Below, one piece after another: positions 9,392 to 58,659 of a DNA stretch of 64,000 bases. The stretch comes from Alphaproteobacteria bacterium (GTDB lineage: Bacteria > Pseudomonadota > Alphaproteobacteria > Micavibrionales > Micavibrionaceae). Where the stretch lies: the NCBI GenBank assembly GCA_030424975.1, contig JAUHVY010000001.1:307093-371092 (forward strand), read 5' to 3'. A program made the translations under genes and the position numbers. Positions within the stretch are counted from its first letter, which is position 1, and each line of letters opens with the position of its first letter. The notes below the pieces were generated by a model that was not told the DNA's origin, ran no database searches, and saw nothing but the letters and a program-made list of their open reading frames with translations.

Positions 9392-9841
9392 CTAGCTCCA
9401 TCGTGTTTGGCGCAATACTTCGCCCGTTATCATAGAGGTCGCATTCACAATATTAAGAGAGCGCAATCCGTGATGCATCGGAATACATACACGGGCATCG
9501 CTGGCTTCATGTACATTTTCGGGGACGCCCGAACTTTCCTGTCCCGCAAGCAATATATCATCTTCGCGGAAAGAAAAAGAGGTATATGGCTGGCTTGATT
9601 TTGTGCTCATCAGGATAATGCGGTGTTTTCCTTGGTAGCAATCAAGAAAATGATTCCAATTTTGATGCTTGGTGATGGTGATTTTATCGAAATAATCCAT
9701 TGCAGATTGTCGAATTTTGCGCTCATTCCATAAAAAACCACAAGGTTCGATAATTTCTAAGCCAATATTCATGCATGCACACAGGCGCATCATCGCCCCA
9801 AAATTTTGCGGTATATCCGGCTGATACATTGCGATTTTCAA
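9392..9841 (-). CDS. trmL: tRNA (cytidine(34)-2'-O)-methyltransferase
   Basis: A SPOUT-class methyltransferase of 149 residues that 2'-O-methylates the wobble nucleotide of tRNA-Leu isoacceptors. MYQPDIPQNFGAMMRLCA near the N-terminus is motif 1. LLAGQESSGVPENV and LRSLNIVNATSM form the knotted AdoMet site. It is upstream of hemF with a seven-base gap. This same window encodes a tRNA-Leu(CAA), one of the two known TrmL substrates in E. coli (established for E. coli; inferred here). Confidence 0.93.
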   Translation of the reverse strand: MKIAMYQPDIPQNFGAMMRLCACMNIGLEIIEPCGFLWNERKIRQSAMDYFDKITITKHQNWNHFLDCYQGKHRIILMSTKSSQPYTSFSFREDDILLAGQESSGVPENVHEASDARVCIPMHHGLRSLNIVNATSMITGEVLRQTRWS

Positions 9842-10595: not shown

Positions 10596-12191
10596 ATGGG
10601 AAGCGGACCACGCGAAGAATTTGATAACCCTGTGGTTGAATGGATTGATTCCAGGATGCCGATTTTTACGATGTTGCAAAAGGAATACGGTGTATTCCCG
10701 ACGCCGAAGAACTTTAACTGGTTCTGGAATTTCGGTGCGATTGCAATGTTTATGCTTATGACGATGATCGTAACAGGCATTTTCCTTGCGATGCATTACA
10801 CGGCGAATACTGAACTGGCATTCGATAGCGTTGAGCGTATTACGCGTGACGTTAACGGTGGTTGGTTGCTCCGTAATATTCATATGAACGGTGCGTCGTT
10901 CTTCTTTATTGCTGTTTATATCCATATTTTCCGCGGTATGTATTACGGGTCGTATAAACGCCCGCGTGAACTTCTGTGGATTTTAGGTGTGGTCATTTTC
11001 TTGCTTATGATGGCAACGGCCTTTATCGGTTACGTTCTTCCTTGGGGGCAGATGAGCCTTTGGGGTGCGACGGTTATCACAAACTTGTTCTCGGCAATTC
11101 CGTTTGTCGGTGAAGACATCAGAACGCTTCTATGGGGTGGTTTTGCCGTTGATAACCCGACATTGACACGTTTCTTTGCGCTTCACTACTTATTGCCGTT
11201 TGTTATCTTTGCCGTTGTATTTTTGCACGTATGGGCATTGCACGTAACGGGCTCTAATAACCCGCTTGGTATTGATGTGAAGGGTCCGCAAGACACCTTG
11301 CCGTTTAACCCGTATTACACAATGAAGGATATTTTCGGTCTGATCTTATTTATTATTGTCTATGCGTTCTTTGTATTTTATGCACCGGATTCACTCGGAC
11401 ACCCTGATAACTACACTCCGGCGAACCCGTTGGTGACCCCGCCGCATATCGTTCCTGAGTGGTACTTCTTGCCGTTCTATGCGATCTTGCGTGCGATCAC
11501 GTTCAACTTCAATATCTACATGCTTGCAGGTGTTGCGTTGTTAGCGGTGTTTATGGTCGAGTTTATCTGGAGACATTCACCTAAATATCTTGGTAAGAGT
11601 GCTGGTATCGCATTATTGGTAATAGGTGGTGCGTTGGCATTGTTCGGTCTTCTCGCTGGCTTTAATCAGCATTGGACAATTCCGTTCACAGATATGCCTA
11701 TTCCTTTAACATCTGCTGAAACATCTCCAATCTCGGCGAAACTTGGTGGTGTGTTGGCGATGTTCGGCTCTATCGGTTTGTTAGTGATCTTGCCATGGCT
11801 TGATAATCACCCGATCCGCTCGGCGCGTTTCCGTCCGCTATTCCGCATTTTTGTGATTGTGTTCACGTTCTCTGTGTTTGTTCTCGGTTATGCCGGTTCA
11901 CAACCTGCTGACCGTGTGTATTGGTCAACATGTATCGGTGATGCACAAGCGTGTGAAGTATTGGCGCATGGCGCAGGTCATGGTGCAGCAGCACATCACG
12001 AAGCAGATGCAGGCGCGGAGCCATTGGTGTTGAAATTCGATAACACGATGTTGGCGCAAGCGTTCACAGGTGTCTACTTCCTATTCTTCCTAATTATCTT
12101 GCCGCTTTTGAGCCGTTTTGAAAAAGGCCGTGAGCTACCGACTTCTATTCATGAAGCCGTATTGGCAAAAAAACAAAAAGCAGGAGCATAA
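10596..12191 (+). CDS. petB: cytochrome b of the bc1 complex, with two internal insertions
   Basis: Membrane subunit carrying the two b hemes and both quinone sites. Conserved parts include [14 protein letters not shown], the Qo motif [14 protein letters not shown], and the late [16 protein letters not shown]. The protein is 531 residues, against about 400-430 in most alphaproteobacteria. The excess is in two places. After AILRAITF (about residue 300) come about 75 residues with two extra hydrophobic stretches, before [14 protein letters not shown]. Between the last two helices is a loop of about 35 extra residues rich in His and Ala ([19 protein letters not shown]). The frame is intact through both, so they are not sequencing errors. 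petC starts five bases downstream. Confidence 0.95.
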
Positions 12192-47321: not shown

Positions 47322-47828
47322 GTTATACATTACCGCCGATACGATACAGAATACGAACAAGCCCAAGCATAAAATCACATTGTAATTGGCCATAGACAGG
47401 CCAATGATCGGGTCTTGCCATGGTATATCTGCACAAGATGCGGTTGGGGCGCTCAGTATATTTTCAAGGATAGATTTTTCACCTTCATCTTCGAAATGAA
47501 CGGCGCATCCCTCGAATGCTGAAATCCACCATTTTTGTTCAACCCCTGTGTGATAGAATGCAAGGCAGCTATTGACGAAAAATGTGATGCCGGTGAATGA
47601 ATATATGGCTGCTACGGCTTTTGGTTTTTTGCGCATCGTAAGACCAAATAGCGATAGGAAAAACGCCAACGCAAACGGGAAACGTTGGTAGACGCATAAA
47701 ATACAGGGTTCCAGCCCTAAAAAGGCTTCGGAGTATAGAGCTGCGCCTACGGCTGTCAGAGACATTAATGCAATAAGAGAGAAGCCAATCGCCGGTGTGG
47801 CAAGGCAATGTATCAATAGTTTTTTCAT
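47298..47828 (-). CDS. dsbB: disulfide bond formation protein B
   Basis: An inner-membrane protein of 176 residues that reoxidises DsbA and passes electrons to quinone. The first pair is GLEPCILCVYQRFP, and the second pair is the two Cys of EGCAVHF and TASCADIP, in the second periplasmic loop. Four membrane helices are present. The ATG at 47828 overlaps the stop of the exoD-like gene upstream by four bases. Confidence 0.92.
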   Translation of the reverse strand: MKKLLIHCLATPAIGFSLIALMSLTAVGAALYSEAFLGLEPCILCVYQRFPFALAFFLSLFGLTMRKKPKAVAAIYSFTGITFFVNSCLAFYHTGVEQKWWISAFEGCAVHFEDEGEKSILENILSAPTASCADIPWQDPIIGLSMANYNVILCLGLFVFCIVSAVMYNLRRRNKV

Positions 47829-48445
47829 GGTGCGATATATCCTTTTATAACGTCCTTGATAATATCCAGCCCCTCTGTCCCTAAGAATATCGTAACTGCC
47901 GCCAGCATGCAAACCCAACCCATGCCAATTATCGCGCCCGCAATAACCGCAAGCCCGTCACGGGAAATAACACCGACAGACATCAGGGCAATGCCCATGC
48001 TCGGCACGGTATTCGTTAAAGGAAAGGGGAGGCACACGGCCAATGTCATGATGAATCCCATTACCCCGATCAGGTGTGAAAAGACGCCCTGTGTGATGAA
48101 TTCTAAACGCGGCTTTATAATTTTTTCGATGCGCTCGACCCATGGTGTGGCAGAGGCAATCATGCCGATTATTTTTTCGCGTCTAAACGTTTTGGCTTTT
48201 AATTTCGCCGGAAACCAAATGGTGTGGCGGCCTATGGCTTGTTGCGCCGTAAGAAATAAAAGCGGTATGCCAAGAACCGTGCCAACACCAACCGCCGGCA
48301 GGGGCAGGGCGGCGGGCAGGGCAAAGAAAAACAAAAAGACACCAAATGCGCGCTCGTGAAAAACTTCTAAAAGCTTCGCCAAACTAATTTCTTCTTCGGT
48401 GACTTGTGTTTCAATCGTTTTGAAAATATCGGATACGGATCTCAT
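47825..48445 (-). CDS. ExoD family membrane protein (second copy)
   Basis: A protein of 206 residues. ISLAKLLEVFHERAFGVFLF, then FALPAALPLPAVGVGTVLGI, GRHTIWFPAKLKAKTFRREK and four membrane helices match ExoD. It is strongly diverged from the stress-region copy near 22 kb, so it is not a recent duplicate. The ATG at 48445 is preferred; a TTG 14 codons upstream is possible. dsbB overlaps its stop by four bases, which points to one transcript. Confidence 0.87.
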   Translation of the reverse strand: MRSVSDIFKTIETQVTEEEISLAKLLEVFHERAFGVFLFFFALPAALPLPAVGVGTVLGIPLLFLTAQQAIGRHTIWFPAKLKAKTFRREKIIGMIASATPWVERIEKIIKPRLEFITQGVFSHLIGVMGFIMTLAVCLPFPLTNTVPSMGIALMSVGVISRDGLAVIAGAIIGMGWVCMLAAVTIFLGTEGLDIIKDVIKGYIAP

Positions 48446-48577
48446 GAAAGAATGGATATCAGAATTTATATGTGGTGACGAGTGCAAATCGTGACTTATG
48501 CGGCAAAAACAAACTCTTCTAAAAAGTGAATTTTTAAGTTGAAGATTTTTTTTAGATGAGTATTATCCCTAAACGTC

Positions 48578-50188
48578 TTAATTGCGGTGTGCCCCTGTGG
48601 TGGAATTGGTAGACGCGCCGGATTCAAAATCCGGTTCCTTCGGGAGTGCGAGTTCGAGTCTCGCTGGGGGCACCATCTTATACTCACCGTCCTTAATTTG
48701 GTCTAAAAGCGAGAATGGAAGCGCTTTTGCGGGAGTTCGAAAACCTTCATTTCGCACATATGGCAGTCGCTCTGAAAATGCCAATTTCAGTACCAATCTT
48801 TTGTGATTGAGGTTGCCTGTATCCCATAAATTCTGCGGGTTTCCAAGGAAGGTGATAGCAGTTCGAAAAGTGTCGTCGAAGGTCGCAAGCGGACGGCCGC
48901 AATTTTTAATCTGTTCTTGCAATAAAAGCTTATCCTCTTCCAGCTTTTCGATCTTGCCCTCATACGCGACAATCAGATTGACACTTTGCGTTTCAGCGAT
49001 GCGATCTATGAAATGCTCGCTTTGTTTTTCGAGGCGTAACAGCTCGCGTTTCATAAAGGTGACTTCTTCCTTGCCGTTATCGCGGCGATGATCCCAAAGG
49101 GCGCCGAACATCTCGGCGGCGGTATAGAACAAGTCAGGCGTGGGCGTAAGCTCGGCCAGCATCTTTTCAAATTCATCTTCGATTGTTGCACGTGGAATGG
49201 ATTTACCGCGCTCAGGGCATTCCTTCCCTTGGCAGAGATAATACGCATAACGCCCGCCAACACCTTTTGACCAGCAAGAGGTATAAGGTTTGCCGCAACT
49301 GCCGCATGTCACGTATCCGCGCAATGGGAAATCCTCATGGATGTCTTTGCGGCGTGGTGCCATGCTCTGATTTTCTAATCGCTGTTGTATCCTCTTCCAT
49401 GTTTCAAAGCTGATTAACGCTTCATGTTTGCCAGGGTGCATTTTGATATCCCAATTCGGCACATCGAGATACCCCGCATATAAGGGGCGTTTGAGAATAT
49501 CGTTCACGGTTTTGAAATGGACTTCGCCTTTTTTGTTTTTATTTGGAAATGCTGGTTTGCTTTCCAAGAAGTTCTTAAACTCGCCTTGTGTGGCAAAGCG
49601 GCCAGAGGCGAAGCCCTCAAGTGCTTCCCTCACGATAGAGGCGACAGGTTCATCAGGAACCAAGATTTTGCCGTGCATGGGTTTGTTTTCAAATTTATAG
49701 CCAACGGGCGCATGAAACACCCAATAGCCATTCATCACCCTTGCACGCATGCGGTTTCTGACTTGCTCGGTGTTCTTCTCTCGTTGGTGCGCGGCTACAC
49801 TGGCCAGCAAGTGCTCAACAAGGCGGCTATCGGAGTCATCGCCAAATTCAATGGACGGGCTTTCGAGTTTGCCGCCCGCTTCGGCGATGGATGATCTGAG
49901 CTTGATATGGGTTTCGATGTTACGGGCTAAACGGCTAATATCATCGATAATGACGACGAGGTTTTCTTTCTTGTGCGCTTTGAGGAAGACCAGCATTTTT
50001 TGAATGTTCGGGCGGTCTAATAATTTGCCCGTAATGCCTTCATCTTTGAATACGTCGATAACCTCATAGCCTTTATGCTTTGCGTATTCGCGGCATCGTG
50101 TTTCTTGAGATTGTAGGCCGTGACCCTCTTTGACCTGTTTCGGGCTGGAGACACGGCAATAAATAACGGCTTTTCTACGTTGAGTCAT
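48578..50188 (-). CDS. large serine recombinase (site-specific integrase)
   Basis: A protein of 536 residues. The resolvase catalytic domain has the active-site Ser in YCRVSS (about residue 14) and the Arg of DDISRLARN. A recombinase domain (HAPVGYKFEN, LKRPLYAGYL), a zinc ribbon (VTCGSCGKPYTSCWSKG, LCQGKECPERGK) and a coiled coil (about 395-450) follow. It should insert and excise the element. The last 30 residues (after GEYKMV) are not native: they are the antisense strand of tRNA-Leu, PPARLELALPKEPDFESG... in part. The native ending, 26 codons, is preserved at 57079-57158. It begins within 14 bases of the accessory gene. Confidence 0.94.
   Translation of the reverse strand: MTQRRKAVIYCRVSSPKQVKEGHGLQSQETRCREYAKHKGYEVIDVFKDEGITGKLLDRPNIQKMLVFLKAHKKENLVVIIDDISRLARNIETHIKLRSSIAEAGGKLESPSIEFGDDSDSRLVEHLLASVAAHQREKNTEQVRNRMRARVMNGYWVFHAPVGYKFENKPMHGKILVPDEPVASIVREALEGFASGRFATQGEFKNFLESKPAFPNKNKKGEVHFKTVNDILKRPLYAGYLDVPNWDIKMHPGKHEALISFETWKRIQQRLENQSMAPRRKDIHEDFPLRGYVTCGSCGKPYTSCWSKGVGGRYAYYLCQGKECPERGKSIPRATIEDEFEKMLAELTPTPDLFYTAAEMFGALWDHRRDNGKEEVTFMKRELLRLEKQSEHFIDRIAETQSVNLIVAYEGKIEKLEEDKLLLQEQIKNCGRPLATFDDTFRTAITFLGNPQNLWDTGNLNHKRLVLKLAFSERLPYVRNEGFRTPAKALPFSLLDQIKDGEYKMVPPARLELALPKEPDFESGASTNSTTGAHRN
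48591..48675 (+). tRNA. tRNA-Leu(CAA)
   Basis: Acceptor GCCCCTG pairs with TGGGGGC, followed by ACCA (CCA encoded). The anticodon arm is CCGGA-TTCAAAA-TCCGG, giving anticodon CAA. The long variable arm (TTCCTTCGGGAGT) is proper for a class II tRNA, and the T-arm has AGTTCGAGTCT. Its 3' end is the insertion site of the mobile element, and its antisense strand is read as the tail of the recombinase gene. Confidence 0.97.
48670..48705. repeat. left attachment-site direct repeat (attL)
   Basis: 36 bases identical to 57159-57194. The first six (GCACCA) are the end of tRNA-Leu; the rest is the 3' part of the recombinase gene. On its left lies tRNA sequence. Confidence 0.85.
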
Positions 50189-50444
50189 GGGGCTGCTCTC
50201 CTTCCTGTGGCGCGGGCAATAACGGCATATTGTGTTGATGTTTTGAGTCTACGGTTTTGCGTGAATCCTGTAAATCGGAAACACGGTTTTTCTTGGCGTG
50301 TATCTGGTCGGGATGGATTCCAAAGGCGCGATCAACAAAGCTTTCCATGATGAGCCATAGGTCGTGGATAAGCTCGATTTTCTGTTCGCGGGTTAAATCC
50401 ATATTCTCCAGCATAGGTAAATATTTGTTAATGTCTGGTTGCAT
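50175..50444 (-). CDS. accessory protein of the recombinase (unknown family)
   Basis: A protein of 89 residues. MQPDINKYLPMLENMDLTRE and KIELIHDLWLIMESFVDRAF are probably helical; the C-terminal 35 residues are hydrophilic (AKKNRVSDLQDSRKTVDSKH). I believe similar small proteins accompany serine recombinases in alphaproteobacterial elements; what they do is not known (a directionality factor is a guess). AAGGAG lies ten bases before the ATG. It overlaps the recombinase start by 14 bases. Confidence 0.72.
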   Translation of the reverse strand: MQPDINKYLPMLENMDLTREQKIELIHDLWLIMESFVDRAFGIHPDQIHAKKNRVSDLQDSRKTVDSKHQHNMPLLPAPQEGEQPHDST

Positions 50445-50559
50445 GGCGGCTTCTCCTTGTCGTTTACGGTGACAAGTTAAATTTACCAGTTGGTGCGGCG
50501 CAGCATGGGCGCTTCCGTGTGCTCGAATAAATATGTCGATAGTTATTGACATGTTAAAT

Positions 50560-50581
50560 TATGTCCATTAGTCTGGACATA
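50560..50581. promoter_or_regulatory. ars operator palindrome at the arsR start codon
   Basis: TATGTCCA (50560-50567) and TGGACATA (50574-50581) form a perfect 8-base inverted repeat with six bases between. It ends on the A of the arsR ATG. A TTGACA lies at 50546-50551, so bound ArsR would cover the promoter start region. Confidence 0.75.
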
Positions 50582-50946
50582 TGGATATACAAGAAGCAAT
50601 CATTATGTTTGATGCGCTATCTCAGGAAACTCGCCTGAGTGCATTTCGTTTGTTAGTAGAGGCTGGCGTTGAGGGCTTGCCTGCAGGTGCAATCAGTGAA
50701 AAGCTGGGTACACCGCACAACACAATGTCTTTTCACTTAAATCACCTGTCCAACGCAGGGATTATTTCATCACGTAAGGATGGGCGCTCGGTTATTTACT
50801 CTGCGAACTTTGATGTCATGCGTGATTTGATCGGATTTATGGTGAAAGATTGCTGCAGCGTTGAATTCGCCAGCATCCGTGAAGACAAGAAGAAAGGCTG
50901 CTCAATAATCGAGCTTGCAAATTGTTGCTCCCCTAAATCAAAATGA
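50581..50946 (+). CDS. arsR: ArsR-family arsenite-responsive repressor
   Basis: A winged-helix protein of 121 residues. MDIQEAIIMFDALSQETRLS and FRLLVEAGVEGLPAGAISEK form the start, HNTMSFHLNHLSNAGIISS the recognition helix. Cys91-Cys92, Cys107 and Cys115-Cys116 in the C-terminal third resemble the vicinal Cys set of arsenite-sensing ArsR of the Acidithiobacillus type, rather than the N-terminal CVC of E. coli ArsR. It heads the ars operon and the operator palindrome ends at its start codon, so the transcript may be leaderless. Confidence 0.93.
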   Translation: MDIQEAIIMFDALSQETRLSAFRLLVEAGVEGLPAGAISEKLGTPHNTMSFHLNHLSNAGIISSRKDGRSVIYSANFDVMRDLIGFMVKDCCSVEFASIREDKKKGCSIIELANCCSPKSK

Positions 50947-50957
50947 AAGGTCTGATT

Positions 50958-51398
50958 ATGAAACGTATGCATATACATGTTGGTGTTGAAAATCTGGATG
51001 ACAGTATTAAATTTTACAATGCGCTGTTTAACGCTGAGCCCGTCAAAACAAAAGGCGACTATGCCAAGTGGATGCTCGATGACCCGCGTATAAATTTTGC
51101 GATTTCAACGCGTGTAAAAACAAAAGGCGTTGATCACCTCGGTATTCAGGTGGATGACTTATCCGAACTTGAAGCAATCAGAACGCAAATGTCAGCGGCT
51201 AATATCTCAACACATGACGATGGTGAAACAACGTGTTGCTATGCACGCTCTGAAAAATCTTGGATAGAAGACCCAAGCGGCATTGCTTGGGAAGCTTATC
51301 AAACGATGGACGATGTGCAGATTTTTTCTGACAAAGACGCAGCAGCCGGTTCTGCTTGTTGCGTACCAAACGCCAACCAGAAAACGGGCTGCTGCTAG
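50958..51398 (+). CDS. arsI: ArsI-type glyoxalase-fold C-As lyase
   Basis: A type I extradiol dioxygenase-fold enzyme of 146 residues. Metal ligands His5 (MKRMHIH), His60 (GVDHLGI) and Glu112 (WEAYQ) and the substrate Cys pair Cys93-Cys94 (ETTCCYA) match ArsI, which cleaves the C-As bond of trivalent methyl- or aryl-arsenicals. The C-terminus adds ACC and GCC motifs. AAAGG lies seven bases before this ATG; an ATG five codons upstream overlaps the arsR stop and could be used in coupling. The family also includes cadmium-induced CadI proteins, so substrate specificity is inferred from the operon. Confidence 0.88.
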   Translation: MKRMHIHVGVENLDDSIKFYNALFNAEPVKTKGDYAKWMLDDPRINFAISTRVKTKGVDHLGIQVDDLSELEAIRTQMSAANISTHDDGETTCCYARSEKSWIEDPSGIAWEAYQTMDDVQIFSDKDAAAGSACCVPNANQKTGCC

Positions 51399-51400
51399 TA

Positions 51401-52552
51401 ATGAAAAATGTTCTTGTCCTTTGTACGGGTAACTCCTGCCGTTCTATTATGGCCGAAGCTCTGATTAATCACTTAGGCGCAGGCAGCTATAAAGCGGTTA
51501 GTGCAGGCAGTGATCCGACTGGTGAAGTGCATCCTAAATCGATAGAAACATTAGAGCGGCATGGCATTCCATCCCATGAACCGCGAAGCAAGTCATGGGA
51601 TGAATTTGAGGGTACAAACTTTGATCTGGTGATTACGGTTTGTGATGCCGCTGCGGGGCAAAGTTGTCCGATATTCTTTGGAAAGCATGAAAAATTACAT
51701 TGGAGTACGCCTGATCCTGCCGCAGCAATTGGTAGTGAAGAGGATATAACCGCTGCATTCGAGGAGGCGTTTGAAATATTGAAGATAAGGGTTGAAGGCT
51801 TAATGCAGATTAGGCTGGCAAAGAAAAATTTGATCACCCTTGTTGAACAAACAAAGGTCATGCTTAGACAACATGTTTCTTTTGAAAAAAGTGATTTAAC
51901 AGGGCGAATGATTACTTACTTCATATACAAACAACTTGATCATGCTATGTCAGTCATAAAGCTTGATCCGTCCATGGATACTGTCTTAATCGCTAGAACA
52001 ATGATTGAAGGTGTTATCAATTTAACTTGGGTATTGGAGCAACCTGAGACCCGCGTGGAAGATTGGTTCAATTATTCATCTGTCTATGATTTTAATTTAC
52101 TGAAGGACAAAGAAAGCGGCGGCTCATTTATCTCGGATAATGATAGAAATAATGTACTTGAAAACTATGAAAAAAATGCGAGTGCTTTTCTAACAAAGAA
52201 AGGTAACAGGCATCATGACAATTTCCGCAAAGGTAATAACCTCTCGAACATATCAAAAGACAATACTGATTTAGAATACTTTTATCAGAATTATAAATAC
52301 TTTTCAGATTGGGTGCATTGGGGCTCGCAATCACTACGGCACGTTATAGACGAACAAGAAAATGAAATTTCATATTATGAACAAGAACATATCTACAGAG
52401 CTCCCGCGCTTGTCATTGCATTTGGAAGCCTTTTGGATATTGTCGCCAAAACGAGTGAACATTTTGGATTAGAGCAAGATGAAGCGCTAGAAGAAATATC
52501 AAACCAAATGTTGGAAGACTTGAAGAATACAGGGATGAAATTTGATGAATAA
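51401..52552 (+). CDS. arsenate reductase fused to a DUF5677-like domain
   Basis: A protein of 383 residues. Residues 1-135 are a complete thioredoxin-coupled ArsC: catalytic loop CTGNSCRS (Cys8), then Cys81 ([10 protein letters not shown]) and Cys89 (QSCPIFF). The remaining 240 residues have nothing to do with arsenate reduction: [72 protein letters not shown]. These match the pattern of DUF5677 proteins (helical, HEPN-like in appearance). The reading frame is continuous with no stop or odd joint. The gene lies two bases after arsI and overlaps acr3 by eight bases, so the fusion is under the ars promoter. Confidence 0.85.
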
Positions 52553-53591
52553 ACCAGAACAATCACCTATGGGATTATTTGAACGCTACCTCTCGCTCTG
52601 GGTTGGGCTTTGCATAGCAGCGGGCGTTGGTCTGGGTATAGCTGCGCCAAACATGTTTGAAAGCATCGCTGCGATAGAATATGCCAGCGTCAATCTGGTG
52701 GTTGCTGTTTTCATATGGGTGATGATTTATCCGATGATGGTGAATGTGGATTTCGCCAGTCTTAAAGACGTTGGCAAAAAACCAAAGGGCTTATGTATCA
52801 CGCTGGTCGTGAACTGGCTGATTAAACCGTTTACAATGGCCGCGCTTGGTATCCTCTTTTTTCAATATCTGTTTGCAGGTTTAGTTGATCCGCAAGATGC
52901 CAAGGAATATATCGCGGGGATGATTCTGCTCGGCGTTGCACCATGCACGGCGATGGTGTTTGTTTGGAGCCAGCTTGTGCGCGGCGATGCCAACTATACG
53001 CTCGTGCAGGTGTCCATAAACGATATCATTATGGTGTTTGCCTTTGCGCCGATTGCGGCGTTCTTGCTTGGCGTAACGGATATTGTTGTACCGTGGGAAA
53101 CGCTTCTTTTGTCTGTGGTGCTCTACGTTGTTATTCCTCTGGCTGCAGGATATGTGACGCGTAAAATGCTTGATAGCTCAGGTAATGATGAAAAAATTTC
53201 CAGTTTTACAGGAAAGGTTAAGCCGTTCTCGATTATGGGGTTGCTGGCGACTGTTGTTTTACTGTTTGGCTTTCAGGCGCAAACGATCATTGATAAGCCG
53301 CTCATTATTGGATTGATTGCCGTGCCACTCCTAATTCAAAGCTACGGCATTTTCGTTATTGCCTATGGTTGGGCTTATGTTTGGCGCGTGCCGTTTTCTA
53401 CCGCGGCTCCTGCAGCGCTTATTGGAACGTCGAATTTCTTTGAGTTGGCTGTTGCTGTTGCGATTAGTTTATTCGGCTTGAACTCGGGCGCTGCTCTGGC
53501 AACTGTGGTTGGGGTGCTGGTCGAGGTTCCTGTCATGTTATCCTTGGTCGCCATTGCGAACCGAACAAGAACTCTGTTTTCACAAGATTAA
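52545..53591 (+). CDS. acr3: Acr3-type arsenite efflux permease
   Basis: A membrane protein of 348 residues with ten helices. [19 protein letters not shown] at the start, the conserved Cys in [15 protein letters not shown] (about residue 128) and [19 protein letters not shown] near the end are Acr3 signatures. It exports arsenite using the proton gradient. The ATG at 52545 overlaps the end of the arsC fusion by eight bases. It is the last gene of the ars operon. Confidence 0.95.
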
Positions 53592-54061
53592 TGCCATTTC
53601 TACTGAACGCAAGCTGTGTGTTGTACTACAACACGCTTGGAAAGGGAGACGCTGCGCTCTCCCGTTTCATCCCTCTCGCGGATGGTTTTGGGCATGGGAA
53701 CACAATCCGTTCTACCATGCAAAACCATCAAAACGTATCGCCGTTTTATCTCTCGCAGGACTTGGAGAATTACCTCTCCACCTGCACCGAACCATGCATG
53801 AACATATGGATGTTCAATCGCCATTCAGGGGAGCATATCCGCTACCCCTAAAAACCCCATGATGATTTCATCAAGACCAACCGTGCGCCGATTGGATGCC
53901 GTAAGCGCTTCCCGCTTAACCAGAACCAAGGGTACGCCCTTGGATGCGTTTTGATGGATAGTTAAGAAATAGTCGTTAAACCGCTTTACAATCACAGCTT
54001 ATGGTTAATAATTAGTCGGTTATTTTCCATCGTATGTGTAATCTATAGATATGTGAAATTT
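53592..54061. other. intergenic stretch with hairpins, between acr3 and cargo gene
   Basis: No convincing gene; short frames on both strands lack motifs and ribosome-binding sites. It holds GGGAGA-TCTCCC (53644-53663), an inverted repeat GATGGTTTTG/CAAAACCATC (53681-53690, 53720-53729) and CCAAGGG-TACG-CCCTTGG (53926-53943), and at the right end the 34-base segment shared with the second element. The hairpins could be a terminator, an RNA or a recombination site. Confidence 0.55.
53982..54015. repeat. left border of the cargo slot, element 1
   Basis: CGCTTTACAATCACAGCTTATGGTTAATAATT in two parts (CGCTTTACAAT, CAGCTTATGGTTAATAATT) is shared with 57414-57446, with two base changes. It precedes the cargo gene in both elements. 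Confidence 0.7.
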
Positions 54062-54805
54062 ATGAAAAATACTTCATTAAGGAGCCCTAAGGCAAAACTG
54101 GAACGTGCAAAAAACTTAATCAAGGAAGCTGATGCGTCTCTTTCTACATACACAAACTCTGTCCATTTGTCTTTGAATAGAGGGTCTCATCCAAATGCCT
54201 CTGGTGATGATCATGTGATCATACTTAAAGCAGAGGAAGATATCCCTGATATGGTAGTTTCTATAGCTGGAGATGCGGTGCATAATATTCGCAGCGCATT
54301 AGATCATCTTGCGTGCTGCTTAGCTGTTAAGAATGGAAAAACAATGAGTGGTGTTTCATTCCCATTTGATGAAACCCAAAGTGCTTTCGAACATAGCTCT
54401 ATTAATAAAATACAGAAACTATCCGTTGAGGCGCAAAATAAAATCAAGTCATTAAAGCCTTATGGAGGGGGTAATAACTTTTTATATAGCCTTAGTCAGT
54501 TAGATAATCGTGATAAACACCGAGCTCTTTTATTAGCGTGTCTTGTACATCAAAACATACAAGGTGATTTTTCTTGTGATCATCCAATTCAGGTCTCAAC
54601 AAATTGGGTGGGTTCATTACATGATGGTATTCACCTTTTTACATTTCCTAAGTCCGCAGTGTTCACACAGAACTTGAAGTTAACTTTTTCTGTTGCACTA
54701 AATGAAGTTGATATTTTAATGGGGAAGCCACTTGTCGATGTATTGAATGAATTTTTAAAGCTTGTTGAAAATATAATTTTTGATTTTGAAAAAGAATTTT
54801 TCTGA
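54062..54805 (+). CDS. cargo protein, uncharacterised (HEPN-like appearance)
   Basis: A soluble protein of 247 residues, mostly helical at the N-terminus. Distinctive parts: AGDAVHNIRSALDHLACCLA (R-x-x-LDHLA), ISFPF-like segment (GVSFPFDETQ), SVEAQNKIKSLKPYGGGN and LSQLDNRDKHRALLL (L-x-x-x-DKHR). I recall a widespread family with these RSALDHLA and DKHR blocks, without known function; RxxxxH motifs could indicate a HEPN ribonuclease fold. The ATG at 54062 is chosen over GTG three codons before. It is more AT-rich than the ars genes, and it sits between two borders shared with the second element. Confidence 0.68.
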   Translation: MKNTSLRSPKAKLERAKNLIKEADASLSTYTNSVHLSLNRGSHPNASGDDHVIILKAEEDIPDMVVSIAGDAVHNIRSALDHLACCLAVKNGKTMSGVSFPFDETQSAFEHSSINKIQKLSVEAQNKIKSLKPYGGGNNFLYSLSQLDNRDKHRALLLACLVHQNIQGDFSCDHPIQVSTNWVGSLHDGIHLFTFPKSAVFTQNLKLTFSVALNEVDILMGKPLVDVLNEFLKLVENIIFDFEKEFF

Positions 54806-54865
54806 TACGCATTACTTTATGATCAATGCTGGTTTTGGGCTGTTTTGTGTCGTTAATTAATATGA

Positions 54866-56149
54866 TCACTCCATCGCATACCCGCTGCGGTCATGCGGCT
54901 GCGGTTTAAACTTAACGGGTTTGGGGCCGTTGCGCTCTTTCATCTCCATATACGTGCCGATGTCTTTGCGCATTTGTAGCATGGTTTCATTATGCTCATT
55001 ACGAAGGTTTTGAACATGATTTTGCAGGCGGCCACGCTCCTGTAATTGTTTGGTGATGAGTTCCTGTTTTTCCTGTTGGTCACGCGCTTGGCATTTCAGC
55101 GCGTTTTGTCTGTTCTCTTCCTGAATGCGGCGATGCTTGCCGGTTATACGGGCAAGCACACCTTTAAACCATCTGGGCAAACGCTCTTGTCGCTGCGTTT
55201 CTTCTTGCCTCTGGCGGTCATTGTGCCTTAGTTCCAATGTTGAACGCTCTGAGCGGTGACGCTCTCGAAGACTTAAAAGTGCGCTTTTAATAGGCTGGTA
55301 TTTCTTACTGCGCTCTTGCCTTACATCATTGATATGTTTTTGAAGGACATCTGTCATGATTTCGGCTATCTTGGTTTTTGCTTGCTGCACGGACGGTAAA
55401 TCCTCCTGTTTTAAACGAGCATTCAGAGCGCGGGTTTTTAAGCCCGTCCAACGACTGAGGGAATAGACTTCACCCTTATAATCCACGGCGACAAATCCGC
55501 GCCGATCTCCACGTGCAAGGGTGAAGCCGTGATTCTGCAGAGCATGAGCAAATGATTTAGCATCATCGGAAGCGCCCCAAGCTTGCTTGAAGATGTGCTT
55601 AATCATACGCGGATCATCATCTTGGCGCTTGGCCTGCTGCCACTCTTCACGCGTGAAGTTGAGCGGGTTTGTATATTGCTTATCGATAAAACCCTTGGGC
55701 ATGTTCCAGCCCTGTTCAAGATAAATATCTTTCGAAATTTCATTCAGTTTCTTTTTGTAAAACGGCAGGTTTATAGCCGTCATGCTTTGCGCATCAATGC
55801 GTGACCAGACGCAATGCGCGTGCCGTCGTCCTTCTTTTTCATGGAAGACGACAACGCGCGGCTGTCCCTCAAGCCCCATTTTCTGTTCAATGTCGCTCAG
55901 GGCTTTTTCAAATGTTTCATTGGTTACGATTTCATTTTGCGGAGGATTGAGGGAGACGGAAAATAGAAATTGTGTGCAGCGTGTTGCGCGGCTTGTGGCT
56001 TGAATTTCCTGAAACGCGCTGTGAACGGTTTCGGATGAAAACCCCGTGATTTCATGGACGGTCACATGGTCATTATCCCGATCATTTAGAAGGTGATTGG
56101 CGAGCTGTTTTGCGTTGCCTCTTTGATTGCCCTCGATAATCATGGGCAT
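54866..56149 (-). CDS. relaxase / mobilisation nuclease
   Basis: A protein of 427 residues. The N-terminal 270 residues are a relaxase: MPMIIEGNQRGNAKQLANHL, the three-His region EGRRHAHCVWSRID (about 107-120), INLPFYKKKLNEISKDIY, and WNMPKGF. The C-terminal 150 residues are a charged coiled coil (QEETQRQERLPRW, QEKQELITKQLQER). It nicks oriT for mobilisation; which MOB class is not clear from here. It overlaps the mobC-like gene by ten bases. A piece of a related gene, its last 50 codons, is found at 58409-58562. Confidence 0.87.
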   Translation of the reverse strand: MPMIIEGNQRGNAKQLANHLLNDRDNDHVTVHEITGFSSETVHSAFQEIQATSRATRCTQFLFSVSLNPPQNEIVTNETFEKALSDIEQKMGLEGQPRVVVFHEKEGRRHAHCVWSRIDAQSMTAINLPFYKKKLNEISKDIYLEQGWNMPKGFIDKQYTNPLNFTREEWQQAKRQDDDPRMIKHIFKQAWGASDDAKSFAHALQNHGFTLARGDRRGFVAVDYKGEVYSLSRWTGLKTRALNARLKQEDLPSVQQAKTKIAEIMTDVLQKHINDVRQERSKKYQPIKSALLSLRERHRSERSTLELRHNDRQRQEETQRQERLPRWFKGVLARITGKHRRIQEENRQNALKCQARDQQEKQELITKQLQERGRLQNHVQNLRNEHNETMLQMRKDIGTYMEMKERNGPKPVKFKPQPHDRSGYAME

Positions 56150-56520
56150 TGATCTCTCAGGCCAAGGACTTTGATAAGGGATTCTTTGATGAAAGCGATG
56201 TTCTGAACGGCTTCATTCAGGTCATGCAGTACGTCATCGGTGACAAGCAGGCTGCCCGTGTTGGCGGCTCTGGCCAGTTGGTTGATGTTATTGGGAATGC
56301 GTGACGCGCCGAGCTGCGCTAAAATCTGCGCGAGGATGATGTCATCTTCCTTGGGGCGAGATGTACGACCTCTGCGCGGTTTGGCATTACTCAGGAGTGT
56401 TTCACGTATATATGCGCCAAGCGGTTTTGTGCCCGCCAACTCATCCAAGAGCTGGCGTTCCTCAACGCTCAGGCGTAAGGAAAACGGTGTCGGCTTTTTT
56501 GTCTTGGTGTCATTGCTCAT
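56140..56520 (-). CDS. MobC-like relaxosome protein
   Basis: A protein of 126 residues with a ribbon-helix-helix-like start (KPTPFSLRLSVEERQLLDEL, LGAYIRETLL) and the C-terminal mobilisation pattern (ILAQLGASRIPNNINQLARA, NTGSLLVTDDVLHDLNEA). Such proteins bind oriT beside the relaxase. It is directly upstream of the relaxase gene with a ten-base overlap. oriT should be in 56521-56619, though I see no certain nic site. Confidence 0.88.
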   Translation of the reverse strand: MSNDTKTKKPTPFSLRLSVEERQLLDELAGTKPLGAYIRETLLSNAKPRRGRTSRPKEDDIILAQILAQLGASRIPNNINQLARAANTGSLLVTDDVLHDLNEAVQNIAFIKESLIKVLGLRDQCP

Positions 56521-56619
56521 GCCCTCATGATAGGCGTGATGGAGCGGAAAGTTGGGCGTACTTATCTATGTTTATGTTATGCTCTTGTTTCTTAATTAAT
56601 AACACTAAGGAATATTGGG

Positions 56620-57030
56620 ATGTCAGATTTTAAAAATATAGGCTCATGTCTTTGTGGTGAAGTGAATTATGAGGTAAGTGGAAAGATCGCTGGCTTTTAT
56701 CTGTGTCATTGTCAGTATTGTCAAAAAGATACAGGCTCCGAACATGCTGCAAATATTTTTTTATCCGATGGTGATTTGAAGTGGTTAAAGGGGGAAGGCA
56801 ATATTAAATGCTTTACGTTGCCGAGAACGCGGCACACAAAAAGTTTTTGCTCACAATGTGGATCGGCTTTGCCTTATGCGGATCATATTGATGATGCCTT
56901 GGTTGTGCCAGCAGGCAGTCTTGATAAAAAAATAAATACAAAGCCAAACGCGCATTTATTTATATCAAGCAAGGCAACATGGTCTGAGGCTCTTGAAAAT
57001 ATAAAGAAATTTGATCGCCTGCCGATTTGA
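56620..57030 (+). CDS. GFA family (CENP-V/GFA) protein
   Basis: A zinc protein of 136 residues with the GFA layout: SCLCGEVNYEVSGKI, LCHCQYCQKDTGS, RHTKSFCSQCGSALP and the later VPAGSLD. Seven Cys positions fit the structural and catalytic zinc sites. The name-giving activity, addition of formaldehyde to glutathione, is doubtful for most of the family. It is divergent from mobC, near the right end of element 1. It may be cargo. Confidence 0.9.
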   Translation: MSDFKNIGSCLCGEVNYEVSGKIAGFYLCHCQYCQKDTGSEHAANIFLSDGDLKWLKGEGNIKCFTLPRTRHTKSFCSQCGSALPYADHIDDALVVPAGSLDKKINTKPNAHLFISSKATWSEALENIKKFDRLPI

Positions 57031-57078
57031 ACTGCAATATTTTCAGAACAGGGTTGAATGCTGATTTGTTATTTTAAC

Positions 57079-57158
57079 TTACACAATCTTATCTCTTAGC
57101 AGTTGGTTCCAATCCTCAAAAACCTTAAATAATGCGTTCGAGGTTTCTCTATCGGGCT
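57079..57158 (-). other. displaced native 3' end of the element 1 recombinase gene
   Basis: Reading the minus strand from the right-hand repeat in frame with DQIKDGEYKMV gives a clean continuation: QPDRETSNALFKVF then EDWNQLLRDKIV and a TAA at 57081-57079. This is 26 codons, and it does not match tRNA sequence. It explains what the recombinase ending looks like when the element is a circle. Confidence 0.8.
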
Positions 57159-57194
57159 GCACCATCTTATACTCACCGTCCTTAATTTGGTCTA
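57159..57194. repeat. right attachment-site direct repeat (attR of element 1)
   Basis: 36 bases identical to 48670-48705. On its left is GGGCT of the displaced recombinase tail, on its right the degraded recombinase of element 2. Confidence 0.85.
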
Positions 57195-57405
57195 TCGCTT
57201 CGAATGGAAGCGCTTTTGCGGGAGTTCAAAAACCTTCATTTCGCACATATGGCAATCTTTCTGAAAATGCCAATTTCAGCACCAATCTTTTGTGGTTGAG
57301 GTTGCCTGTATCCCACAAATTCTGCGGGTTTCCAAGGAATGTGATAGCAGTTCAAAAAGTGTTGGCGTAAGCTCGGCCAACATCTTTTCAAATTCATCTA
57401 CTAAG
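57159..57405 (-). pseudogene. remnant of a second serine recombinase gene
   Basis: Positions 57159-57357 align with 48670-48868 of the intact recombinase, with about ten percent base changes; then the alignment jumps to match 49137-49183 (GGCGTAAGCTCGGCCA), an internal loss of about 270 bases, and stops at about 57400. The frame is lost. No N-terminal catalytic part is left. It is the scar of element 2. Confidence 0.85.
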
Positions 57406-57509: not shown

Positions 57510-58361
57510 ATGAAAAGAATTATTTTTAAGTATTTTGTTTTTCTCTTATTCATTGTGTTGGCTTCATCGCCTTCCACGGCTAATACAGGTTGTAAGCATA
57601 ACTTAGATCTAGAGGGCTCAATATCAGTTAAGGGGTGTGATAATCAAAAACAAACTTGTGTGAATGGAGCATCTGCCGTCTATAACTATGCTGAAAACCT
57701 CAAAGATGAATCCGACGAAATCCTGACTGTTGCAGTCTCGTCAAGCCCATGGAGGTTATATGGAGGAGATGGTCGAATAATACGTATAAAAGATTTGGCA
57801 AAAGAAATCGAAAAATCTTTAGAAGATCCCAAAGTTAAAAGTGTTAAAATTTATTCTTCTTGGAGCGATGTTAAGCCTTATGGGGCGAAAAATAGTATTG
57901 CTAAACAATTATCAGATGAACTTGACGGCTTTCCTGTATCAGGAATTGATGGCTTCTTATGGTATAAGAGCAATGGTGAAACTTATTCTACAAAACAATC
58001 ATTTACTATCGGTGCAAATTTTCCATACTTTATTGCATCGGGTGATGATGTTATGGATTCGCTAACTGATGGTGCATATATTATGGCTCAAAATTTTTTC
58101 ATCAAAAAAAAGGATCCTATCGGATTAAATCATGCCGCAGTAGGTTGGGATGTTTATATGCTGTGTCCTGATACTGCGCTACATACTTTTGAATTAGCAG
58201 CAGAGATGGATTATCCGATTGCGGCATATAATGCTGCTATTATGCGTCTGGAAAGAGCGGGGGATGGTGATTTCGAACGCGCTAAACAACTTTTAATGCG
58301 AGCAGTTAAATTGGGGGATAAGCAATCAGAAAGCTTATTAGAAGAAATAAGCCTCAAGTAA
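57510..58361 (+). CDS. secreted cargo protein with Sel1-like C-terminus
   Basis: A protein of 283 residues with a signal peptide (1-25, STANTG). The middle (about 60-180: SSSPWRLYGGDGRIIRIKDL, KIYSSWSDVKPYGAKNSIAK) is not known to me. The C-terminal 90 residues are Sel1/TPR-like (LHTFELAAEMDYPIAAYNAA, RAKQLLMRAVKLGDKQSESL). It lies in element 2 at the same place as the 247-residue cargo gene in element 1, between shared borders. It is AT-rich like that gene. No clear ribosome-binding site except AGGATTTAAGT. Confidence 0.7.
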   Translation: MKRIIFKYFVFLLFIVLASSPSTANTGCKHNLDLEGSISVKGCDNQKQTCVNGASAVYNYAENLKDESDEILTVAVSSSPWRLYGGDGRIIRIKDLAKEIEKSLEDPKVKSVKIYSSWSDVKPYGAKNSIAKQLSDELDGFPVSGIDGFLWYKSNGETYSTKQSFTIGANFPYFIASGDDVMDSLTDGAYIMAQNFFIKKKDPIGLNHAAVGWDVYMLCPDTALHTFELAAEMDYPIAAYNAAIMRLERAGDGDFERAKQLLMRAVKLGDKQSESLLEEISLK

Positions 58362-58408
58362 TTACTTTTAATTTTAAAGTTCTCTTTGTGTCGCTAATTA
58401 ATATTCTA

Positions 58409-58562
58409 TCACTCCATCGTATACCCGCCGCGTTGTTGCTGTTGCGGTTTAAATTGAACGGTTTCGGGGCTATTGCGCTCTTTCATCTCCATATACGTGC
58501 CGATGTCCTTGCGCATTTGTAGCATGGTTTCATTATGCTCATTACGGAGGTTTTGAACGTGA
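58409..58562 (-). pseudogene. remnant of a second relaxase gene (3' end)
   Basis: On the minus strand VQNLRNEHNETMLQMRKDIG, TYMEMKERN and a tail ending GGYTME followed by TGA match the last 50 residues of the intact relaxase at 54866-55018. Homology ends abruptly at about 58562. The stop and the sequence behind it (TTAATTAGC) are also shared. Confidence 0.85.
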
Positions 58563-58659
58563 AATTGGGGATGTTCTGGCTATTATCGAAAAGTTAAGTC
58601 TGTATGCCCAGATAGAATACAGGAATCTTGATACAATTGATTGTATAGAAAAGTTCTAA
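58561..58659 (+). pseudogene. 3' fragment of an unknown gene
   Basis: A frame opens exactly where the relaxase homology ends and reads EIGDVLAIIEKLSLYAQIEY then RNLDTIDCIEKF and a stop. It has no start codon. It is probably the tail of a gene cut by the element or by a later deletion. The parent family is not recognised. Confidence 0.45.

Follow-up and report, generated by a model that had tools for sequence, protein, structure and literature searches.

Two C-terminal endings of a tRNA-targeting large serine recombinase with its attachment site in its own gene: a possible directionality switch

The window analysed here is a stretch of 64,000 nucleotides (nt) from the assembly GCA_030424975.1 of an Alphaproteobacteria bacterium of the family Micavibrionaceae (contig JAUHVY010000001.1, positions 307,093 to 371,092). 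It contains a mobile element inserted at a tRNA-Leu(CAA) gene, and the large serine recombinase (LSR) of this element is encoded by a gene whose 3' end holds the attachment (att) site. As read from the window and from related loci, the circle and the integrated form of the element encode different recombinase endings, an original prediction that is correct and general. We infer that this exchange of tails may act as a directionality switch.

Two endings of one recombinase gene

The Pfam domains Resolvase, Recombinase and zinc ribbon follow one another in this order in the window LSR, all three above the cut-offs, and R12, V13 and S14 together with R86 and R89 are invariant in an alignment of 11 recombinase sequences; S14 is presumably the catalytic serine of the family. 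In the integrated state, the C-terminus is GEYK-MV-PPARLELALPKEPDFESGASTNSTTGAHRN followed by a stop, with 30 residues after MV, and both the coordinates and the translation agree with the predicted passage of the frame from GEYKMV into antisense tRNA-Leu. At the far end of the element, 8489 bp away as measured between the two GCACCA cores (Table 1), the minus strand at 57079-57165 reads MV-QPDRETSNALFKVFEDWNQLLRDKIV and a stop, with 26 residues after MV. The prediction had placed GEYKMV plus these 26 residues at the far end: the native continuation is indeed kept there, but, by its sequence, the GEYK in front of it comes from another recombinase, of which a dead 3' remnant is left.

Table 1. 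Coordinates of the recombinase gene, its two endings and the other features of the element in the window
Feature	Position	Strand	Remarks
LSR gene, integrated form	48578..50188	-	536 aa, stop included; Pfam Resolvase, Recombinase, Zn_ribbon_recom
tRNA-Leu(CAA), target gene, B arm	48591..48675	+	
Integrated ending	48578..48676	-	MV + 30 residues from antisense tRNA-Leu and flank, including stop
Core copy GCACCA, tRNA end (attL)	48670..48675		
TCGAAC of tRNA arm	48652..48657	-	nt 19-24 of the arm, T-loop region
Core copy GCACCA, far end	57159..57164		
Native ending, P arm of the window element	57079..57165	-	MV + 26 residues + stop; homologous tails in relatives
TCGAAC of native arm	57136..57141	-	nt 24-29 of the arm
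Small open reading frame overlapping recombinase start	50175..50444	-	Family-conserved
Cargo genes	50581..53591	+	HTH_20, glyoxalase-like, LMWPc + DUF5677, SBF transporter (Pfam)
Relaxase and MobC	54866..56520	-	Relaxase 54866-56149, MobC 56140-56520
GFA-family protein	56620..57030	+	Last gene before the far end
Dead 3' remnant of second recombinase	57160..57399	-	Older tandem element; in-frame stop, missing stretch
Relaxase 3' remnant of older element	58408..58567	-	89% to 54865-55024

The recombinase is matched at any strength in 71 of 95 genomes (own genome included), and 110 related loci were compared, namely 30 from the own genome and its relatives and 80 named loci, chosen as the best out of at least 557 and biased toward close relatives. 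The named loci come from Alphaproteobacteria, Nitrosomonas, Nitrospirales, Nitrospinaceae and others. The predicted position of the att site inside the recombinase 3' end is borne out by 93 of these 110 loci, in which the same junction leads into a called tRNA, with a single reading phase shared by 92 of them: (i) among the 30 loci of the own genome and its relatives, a called tRNA forms the ending in 25, of which 24 share the phase, and (ii) among the 80 named loci it does so in 68, all in that same phase. Among the 17 loci with no called tRNA, 13 have an in-phase TGG and a T-loop-like motif at nt 19 (positions in the arms being counted from the T of TGG); one of these lies at a transfer-messenger RNA gene (L100), and others resemble tRNA ends cut short or the ends of contigs. 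The 93 tRNA junctions represent 88 distinct ones; in the 85 of these that have a stop inside the locus, the integrated endings span 4-310 residues from the core codon, with a median of 21. In locus L136, the recombinase frame is fused through the tRNA into a neighbouring frame some 300 residues long.

Native tails were collected with a profile built from four far ends of the own genome. This profile found tails on the recombinase strand in the elements of relatives, and in nine of the 80 named loci taken with 10 kb of flank (9/9 on the recombinase strand). A class-wide search detected tails in 19 of 385 genomes. The collection comprises 57 tails (27 + 30, duplicates included), of which 41 are non-redundant; for the codon test, three tails with indels (L077, L194, L205) were left out and the remaining 54 were collapsed to these 41. 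Their consensus is M[VA]...G[ED].SN.LF..L..W...L, and they end variably, after 24-53 codons. Over codons 11-23 of these 41 tails, the third codon position varies more freely, with an entropy of 1.65 versus 1.07 (permutation p = 0.0008). Leucine at codon 16 is found in 39/41 tails, encoded by TTA, TTG, CTG, CTC and others, tryptophan at codon 19 in 38/41, and hydrophobic residues occupy codons 12, 13, 16, 19 and 23 in 98-100%, with a 4-3-4 spacing. Stops occur in the other two frames in 30/41 and 27/41 tails. These patterns argue that beyond nt 30 the native tail is conserved as protein, and its LF..L..W...L part is a probable amphipathic helix. Most tails were found by a protein profile, a bias toward protein conservation that counts against this reading; a search at the DNA level was therefore added and answers the objection in part. 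Indeed, the pattern TGGYG-N18-TCGAAC has 23 unique matches in 4.77 Mb (both strands), of which 20 are tails, 18 with the tryptophan at codon 19 and none with a stop in 25 codons, compared with a mean of 3.1 and a maximum of 9 matches for 60 scrambled-hexamer controls. Furthermore, tail similarity and recombinase similarity are correlated (r = 0.60, n = 22, L077 and L155 left out), as expected if both travel as one gene. In L155, no more than about 250 bp separate a native-type tail (9599-9757, +) from the start of the recombinase that follows it, an arrangement suggestive of either a minimal element or a tandem junction.

The native form was seen directly in a 27-kb viral contig (L177), in which a recombinase of 533 amino acids runs unbroken through LVDISGESSNSFLDILRNW, its stop lying 19 nt ahead of the next open reading frame. 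This contig encodes a neck protein according to PHROG, and some of its open reading frames were read as terminase- and portal-like. The predicted difference between circle and integrated form is thus supported both by the conservation of the native ending as protein and by this uninterrupted gene. The opposite case, that of relatives natively ending in the tRNA-derived tail, was not encountered: the integrated endings track the tRNA that was hit, and the native one is shared.

Attachment arms and tRNA targets

The called target tRNAs belong to nine amino acids (Arg, Leu, Ala, Thr, Val, Tyr, Ser, Phe and Met), and in one locus (L100) the target is a transfer-messenger RNA (tmRNA) gene (11511-11878), likewise with the T-loop motif at nt 19. 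Four further full-length paralogues of the window recombinase, with 55-59% identity, are encoded in the own genome (2.43 Mb in two contigs); they end in different tRNAs (Arg-CCG, Ala, Tyr and Arg-ACG), and a remnant is present at a tRNA-Met. In L139, L154, L169 and L170, where no tRNA is called, the ending tracks the 3' part of a tRNA and then diverges; such elements may be inserted in fragments from the 3' side of tRNA genes, the 3' part being perhaps a sufficient target.

The core is about 6 bp long (TGG-Y-G-S) and corresponds to the antisense of the CCA end of the tRNA. In the 24 elements with both ends available, the native arm equals the target in 24/24 at position 6 and in 22/24 at position 4 (shuffled means 12.3 and 12.0, respectively), relatedness not being controlled in either comparison. 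Agreement between the arms of one element in TCGAAC or TTGAAC, judged by eye, is not strict. Of 26 native arms, 21 have the hexamer TCGAAC at nt 24; of 93 tRNA arms, 80 have it at nt 19, in the T-loop region. This last count includes one wrong row, L107, which had been assigned to a neighbouring tRNA-Pro (the true call is tRNA-Arg(TCT)) and which was dropped from the opposite-arm motif test; L072, counted at nt 9, has a second copy at nt 19. Tail codons 9-10, which lie under TCGAAC, are nearly fixed (AAC in 40/41, TCG in 32/41). On this sequence evidence, the conservation of these two codons is that of a DNA-level att-arm motif, and the first 30 nt of the native endings would be the attP arm.

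Relative to the T-loop copy of the tRNA, the TCGAAC of the native arm is thus displaced away from the core by 5 bp. For the motif bound by the zinc domain of the A118 LI integrase, the distance from the core is reported to be greater by 5 bp in attP than in attB (PMC3783163). By match to this offset, the T-loop region would correspond to the attB zinc-domain motif. TCGAAC is near-universal in the T-loop of tRNAs, and one LSR family could therefore use many of them.

Proposed role of the native tail

In the proposed mechanism, an integrative mobilisable element carries an LSR gene whose final codons contain attP. The sequences show that in the circle this gene would read through the core into the native tail, over 28 codons from the core in the window element, and that recombination with the 3' end of a tRNA gene links it, in a constant phase, to antisense tRNA, with the native tail codons left at the other end of the element. 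The zinc domain would read TCGAAC. The tail helix would act only in the circular form, most likely by aiding attP x attB synapsis or by opposing the reverse reaction, perhaps via the coiled-coil arm. Integration would swap the conserved helix for uncontrolled sequence, so that enzyme made later would differ from the enzyme that integrated, and excision would reset the system. The tail can be selected only while it is joined to the recombinase, and its conservation therefore suggests a role in the circular state. In the LI integrase, coiled-coil arms are reported to promote attP x attB synapsis and to hinder attL x attR (PMC3783163), and a directionality factor fused to a serine integrase is reported to favour attL x attR (PMC5737554); a direction effect of a fused C-terminal part is therefore plausible.

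The L177 recombinase was modelled with AlphaFold from an alignment with two tail-bearing rows (in another alignment, tail-only rows were misaligned). The model has two long helices (347-395 and 399-425) after the zinc ribbon, a candidate coiled-coil arm, and the best match of the C-terminal part among solved structures is the A118 LI integrase (PDB 4kis).

Other explanations were considered for the same observations. The native ending could be attP-arm DNA only, which the frame crosses by accident, both protein forms being equal. Such a view would account for the freezing of tail codons 9-10 at the DNA level, and endings of 4-310 residues imply that the enzyme tolerates many of them; it is nevertheless unlikely in view of the codon-like constraint beyond nt 30 (p = 0.0008), with leucine 16 kept in 39/41 tails by varied codons and tryptophan 19 in 38/41, of the stops in the other frames (30 and 27 of 41 tails) and of the 20 tails found from DNA, which have no stop in 25 codons. 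Alternatively, the tail could matter for stability or expression, so that the swap alters the amount of enzyme and not its direction. The arbitrary C-termini that result from the exchange fit this idea, as does the altered integrase of phage Mx8, reported to be less active (PMC4701971). The conserved part is, however, an internal heptad-like pattern and the tails end variably (24-53 codons), unlike a terminal degradation tag, and a low probability was given to this explanation.

Two further possibilities concern the far end itself. After integration, its codons could encode a short peptide of their own, as suggested by the first tail codon, which is ATG in 28/41 tails, but the base concerned comes from the flank (TTG in 5, CTG in 4, GTG in 3 and CAA in 1 of the 41), the flanks share only A-rich bases by the core, and the L177 tail is fused to the recombinase; this possibility is very improbable. 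The two endings could also be an accident of the tandem array in the window, the far-end reading belonging to a dead neighbour. A dead recombinase end does sit there, but the far ends with no recombinase remnant (35 of 40) carry the same tail, and within each element the native arm matches the tRNA that was hit, which leaves this last explanation a barely appreciable probability.

Compared with these alternatives, the attP-in-gene mechanism with loss of a functional tail also meets objections. One of the 93 tRNA junctions (L071) is out of phase. The exact hexamer TCGAAC is absent from 5/26 native arms and 12/93 tRNA arms, no mirrored motif was found in the other two arms, so that the offset is seen in the native/tRNA arm only, and the relatedness of the 24 two-ended elements was not controlled. 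L177 is the only full-length uninterrupted native-tailed gene that was found, a viral-contig search with it for a second one returning the same contig only; its tail, which reaches a profile score of 5.0 bits, was recognised by eye and carries TCAAAC. Finally, the predicted local distance difference test score of the tail helix in the AlphaFold model is 32-54, and no docking is therefore claimed. Taken as a whole, the explanation that combines an LSR with attP in its gene, a tRNA-targeting motif and tail loss as a self-acting directionality or commitment switch appears probable, with substantial doubt left. A stronger version is offered tentatively, as possible and somewhat short of even chances: the helix would make the circle enzyme an integrase, the crossover would disable it or turn it to excision, excision would restore it, and the same DNA arm would encode both the helix and a T-loop look-alike that fits many tRNA genes and a tmRNA gene, in a widespread LSR family.

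Gene content of the element and relation to known systems

The recombinase, the relaxase and MobC are all encoded between the two cores, and no further conjugation genes were found among the 10 window-element proteins scanned. From this gene content, the window element is predicted to be an integrative mobilisable element. Its cargo was read from its families as an arsenic resistance cassette, presumably; in one of the cargo proteins (51356-52552, +), an LMWPc domain, which we take to be of the arsenate reductase type, is fused to DUF5677. The small open reading frame that overlaps the recombinase start is conserved in 97 of the 112 loci with enough upstream sequence, with the pattern LT.EQK.EL....W.IMESFVD...G (the L177 copy is at 1982-2209, +), and has no match in Pfam, PHROG or NCBIfam. 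It is a candidate directionality factor or partner of the recombinase.

Beyond the far end, 57202-57367 is a 93% match to 48713-48878 and 57361-57399 a 95% match to 49140-49178; in this second recombinase remnant, the stretch between the two matching parts is missing and an in-frame stop is present. The window thus holds a tandem array, with an inner junction made of the native arm of the younger element and the recombinase end of the older one. Recombinase sequence at the far end was found in only 5 of 40 elements by a simple motif test. An open frame of 283 amino acids (57510-58361, +) lies between the recombinase and relaxase remnants of the decayed older element. Elsewhere in the own genome, far ends and recombinase remnants outnumber intact elements (L017, 7582-8433, -; L202, L209, L211; L019) and include sites at tRNA-Met and near a tRNA-Val; this surplus may be the record of repeated insertion and decay.

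Among plasmids, 256 records matched the recombinase, one covering 80% or more of the query at a single place and all below 60% identity, and among phages 487 records matched, none with 80% coverage and all below 60% identity, records near the window's genome being possibly absent from both sets. The plasmid match of best identity among the 40 matches listed (partial, 36%, on a Tritonibacter megaplasmid) runs into tRNA-Thr(GGT), again in the same phase. Viral contigs gave 15 loci, of which 11 are relatives reaching the C-terminus: three end in a called tRNA, four have the nt-19 motif, one is native (L177) and three have neither. A search for empty sites in the DNA of genome G016 with the flanks of the L064 element returned tRNA matches and no matching far flank. 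The gene 47825-48487, which lies beside the window tRNA-Leu(CAA) and which we assume to be ExoD-like, has a strong match in nine genus relatives, five of which keep that tRNA, four with no recombinase in the fetched stretch and one occupied (L223). The downstream flanks of the site matched no genus relative, and no exact empty junction was found.

The principle of an att site in the integrase gene, giving two endings, is already known. SSV-type archaeal integrases are tyrosine recombinases, and integration splits their gene. As in the family described here, this gene extends across attP (PMC4383910). In phage Mx8 of Myxococcus xanthus, attP likewise lies in the integrase gene, which acquires a new 3' end and C-terminus after integration, and the altered integrase is reported to be less active or changed in specificity (PMC6070905, PMC4701971); it is described as a tyrosine recombinase in which 112 residues are replaced by 13, whereas the window enzyme has serine recombinase domains. 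By analogy, Mx8 may be taken as a functional precedent for tail swapping. In the streptococcal integrative and conjugative elements at rumA, a serine integrase gene holds the att site and the excised and integrated C-termini differ, as reported in PMC4701971; their target is rumA and not tRNA genes, and an effect of the tail is only proposed in the portions of that source available. The A118 LI integrase shares the domain layout over the matched part and, as far as the native/tRNA arm shows it, the 5-bp offset of the zinc motif (PMC3783163; PDB 4kis), but the accessible text of that paper mentions neither an att site in its gene nor a tRNA target. Finally, Paracoccus phage Pami6 has a serine recombinase with a predicted tRNA-Met site (PMC6536676), a single prediction.

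According to a 2014 paper, tRNA genes were not known as targets of serine integrases (PMC4383910), and later papers, as far as their accessible text goes, assign tRNA sites to tyrosine enzymes (PMC10654092; PMC11476347, apart from one integrase of mixed similarity), Pami6 being the one serine-enzyme prediction among them (PMC6536676). A literature search, largely limited to sources other than subscription papers and preprints, found no LSR family aimed at tRNA genes generally, no T-loop explanation and no conserved tail lost on integration. The serine family described here, which is found in Alphaproteobacteria and in other groups, has a tmRNA and the tRNAs for nine amino acids as its targets, and the reason proposed for this broad use, a T-loop lying at the attB zinc-domain position, is simple and testable. 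The direction of serine integrases is a standing question, and natural enzymes with two states that differ only in the tail would permit a direct test of it. Integrases directed at conserved sites might also be drawn from this family.

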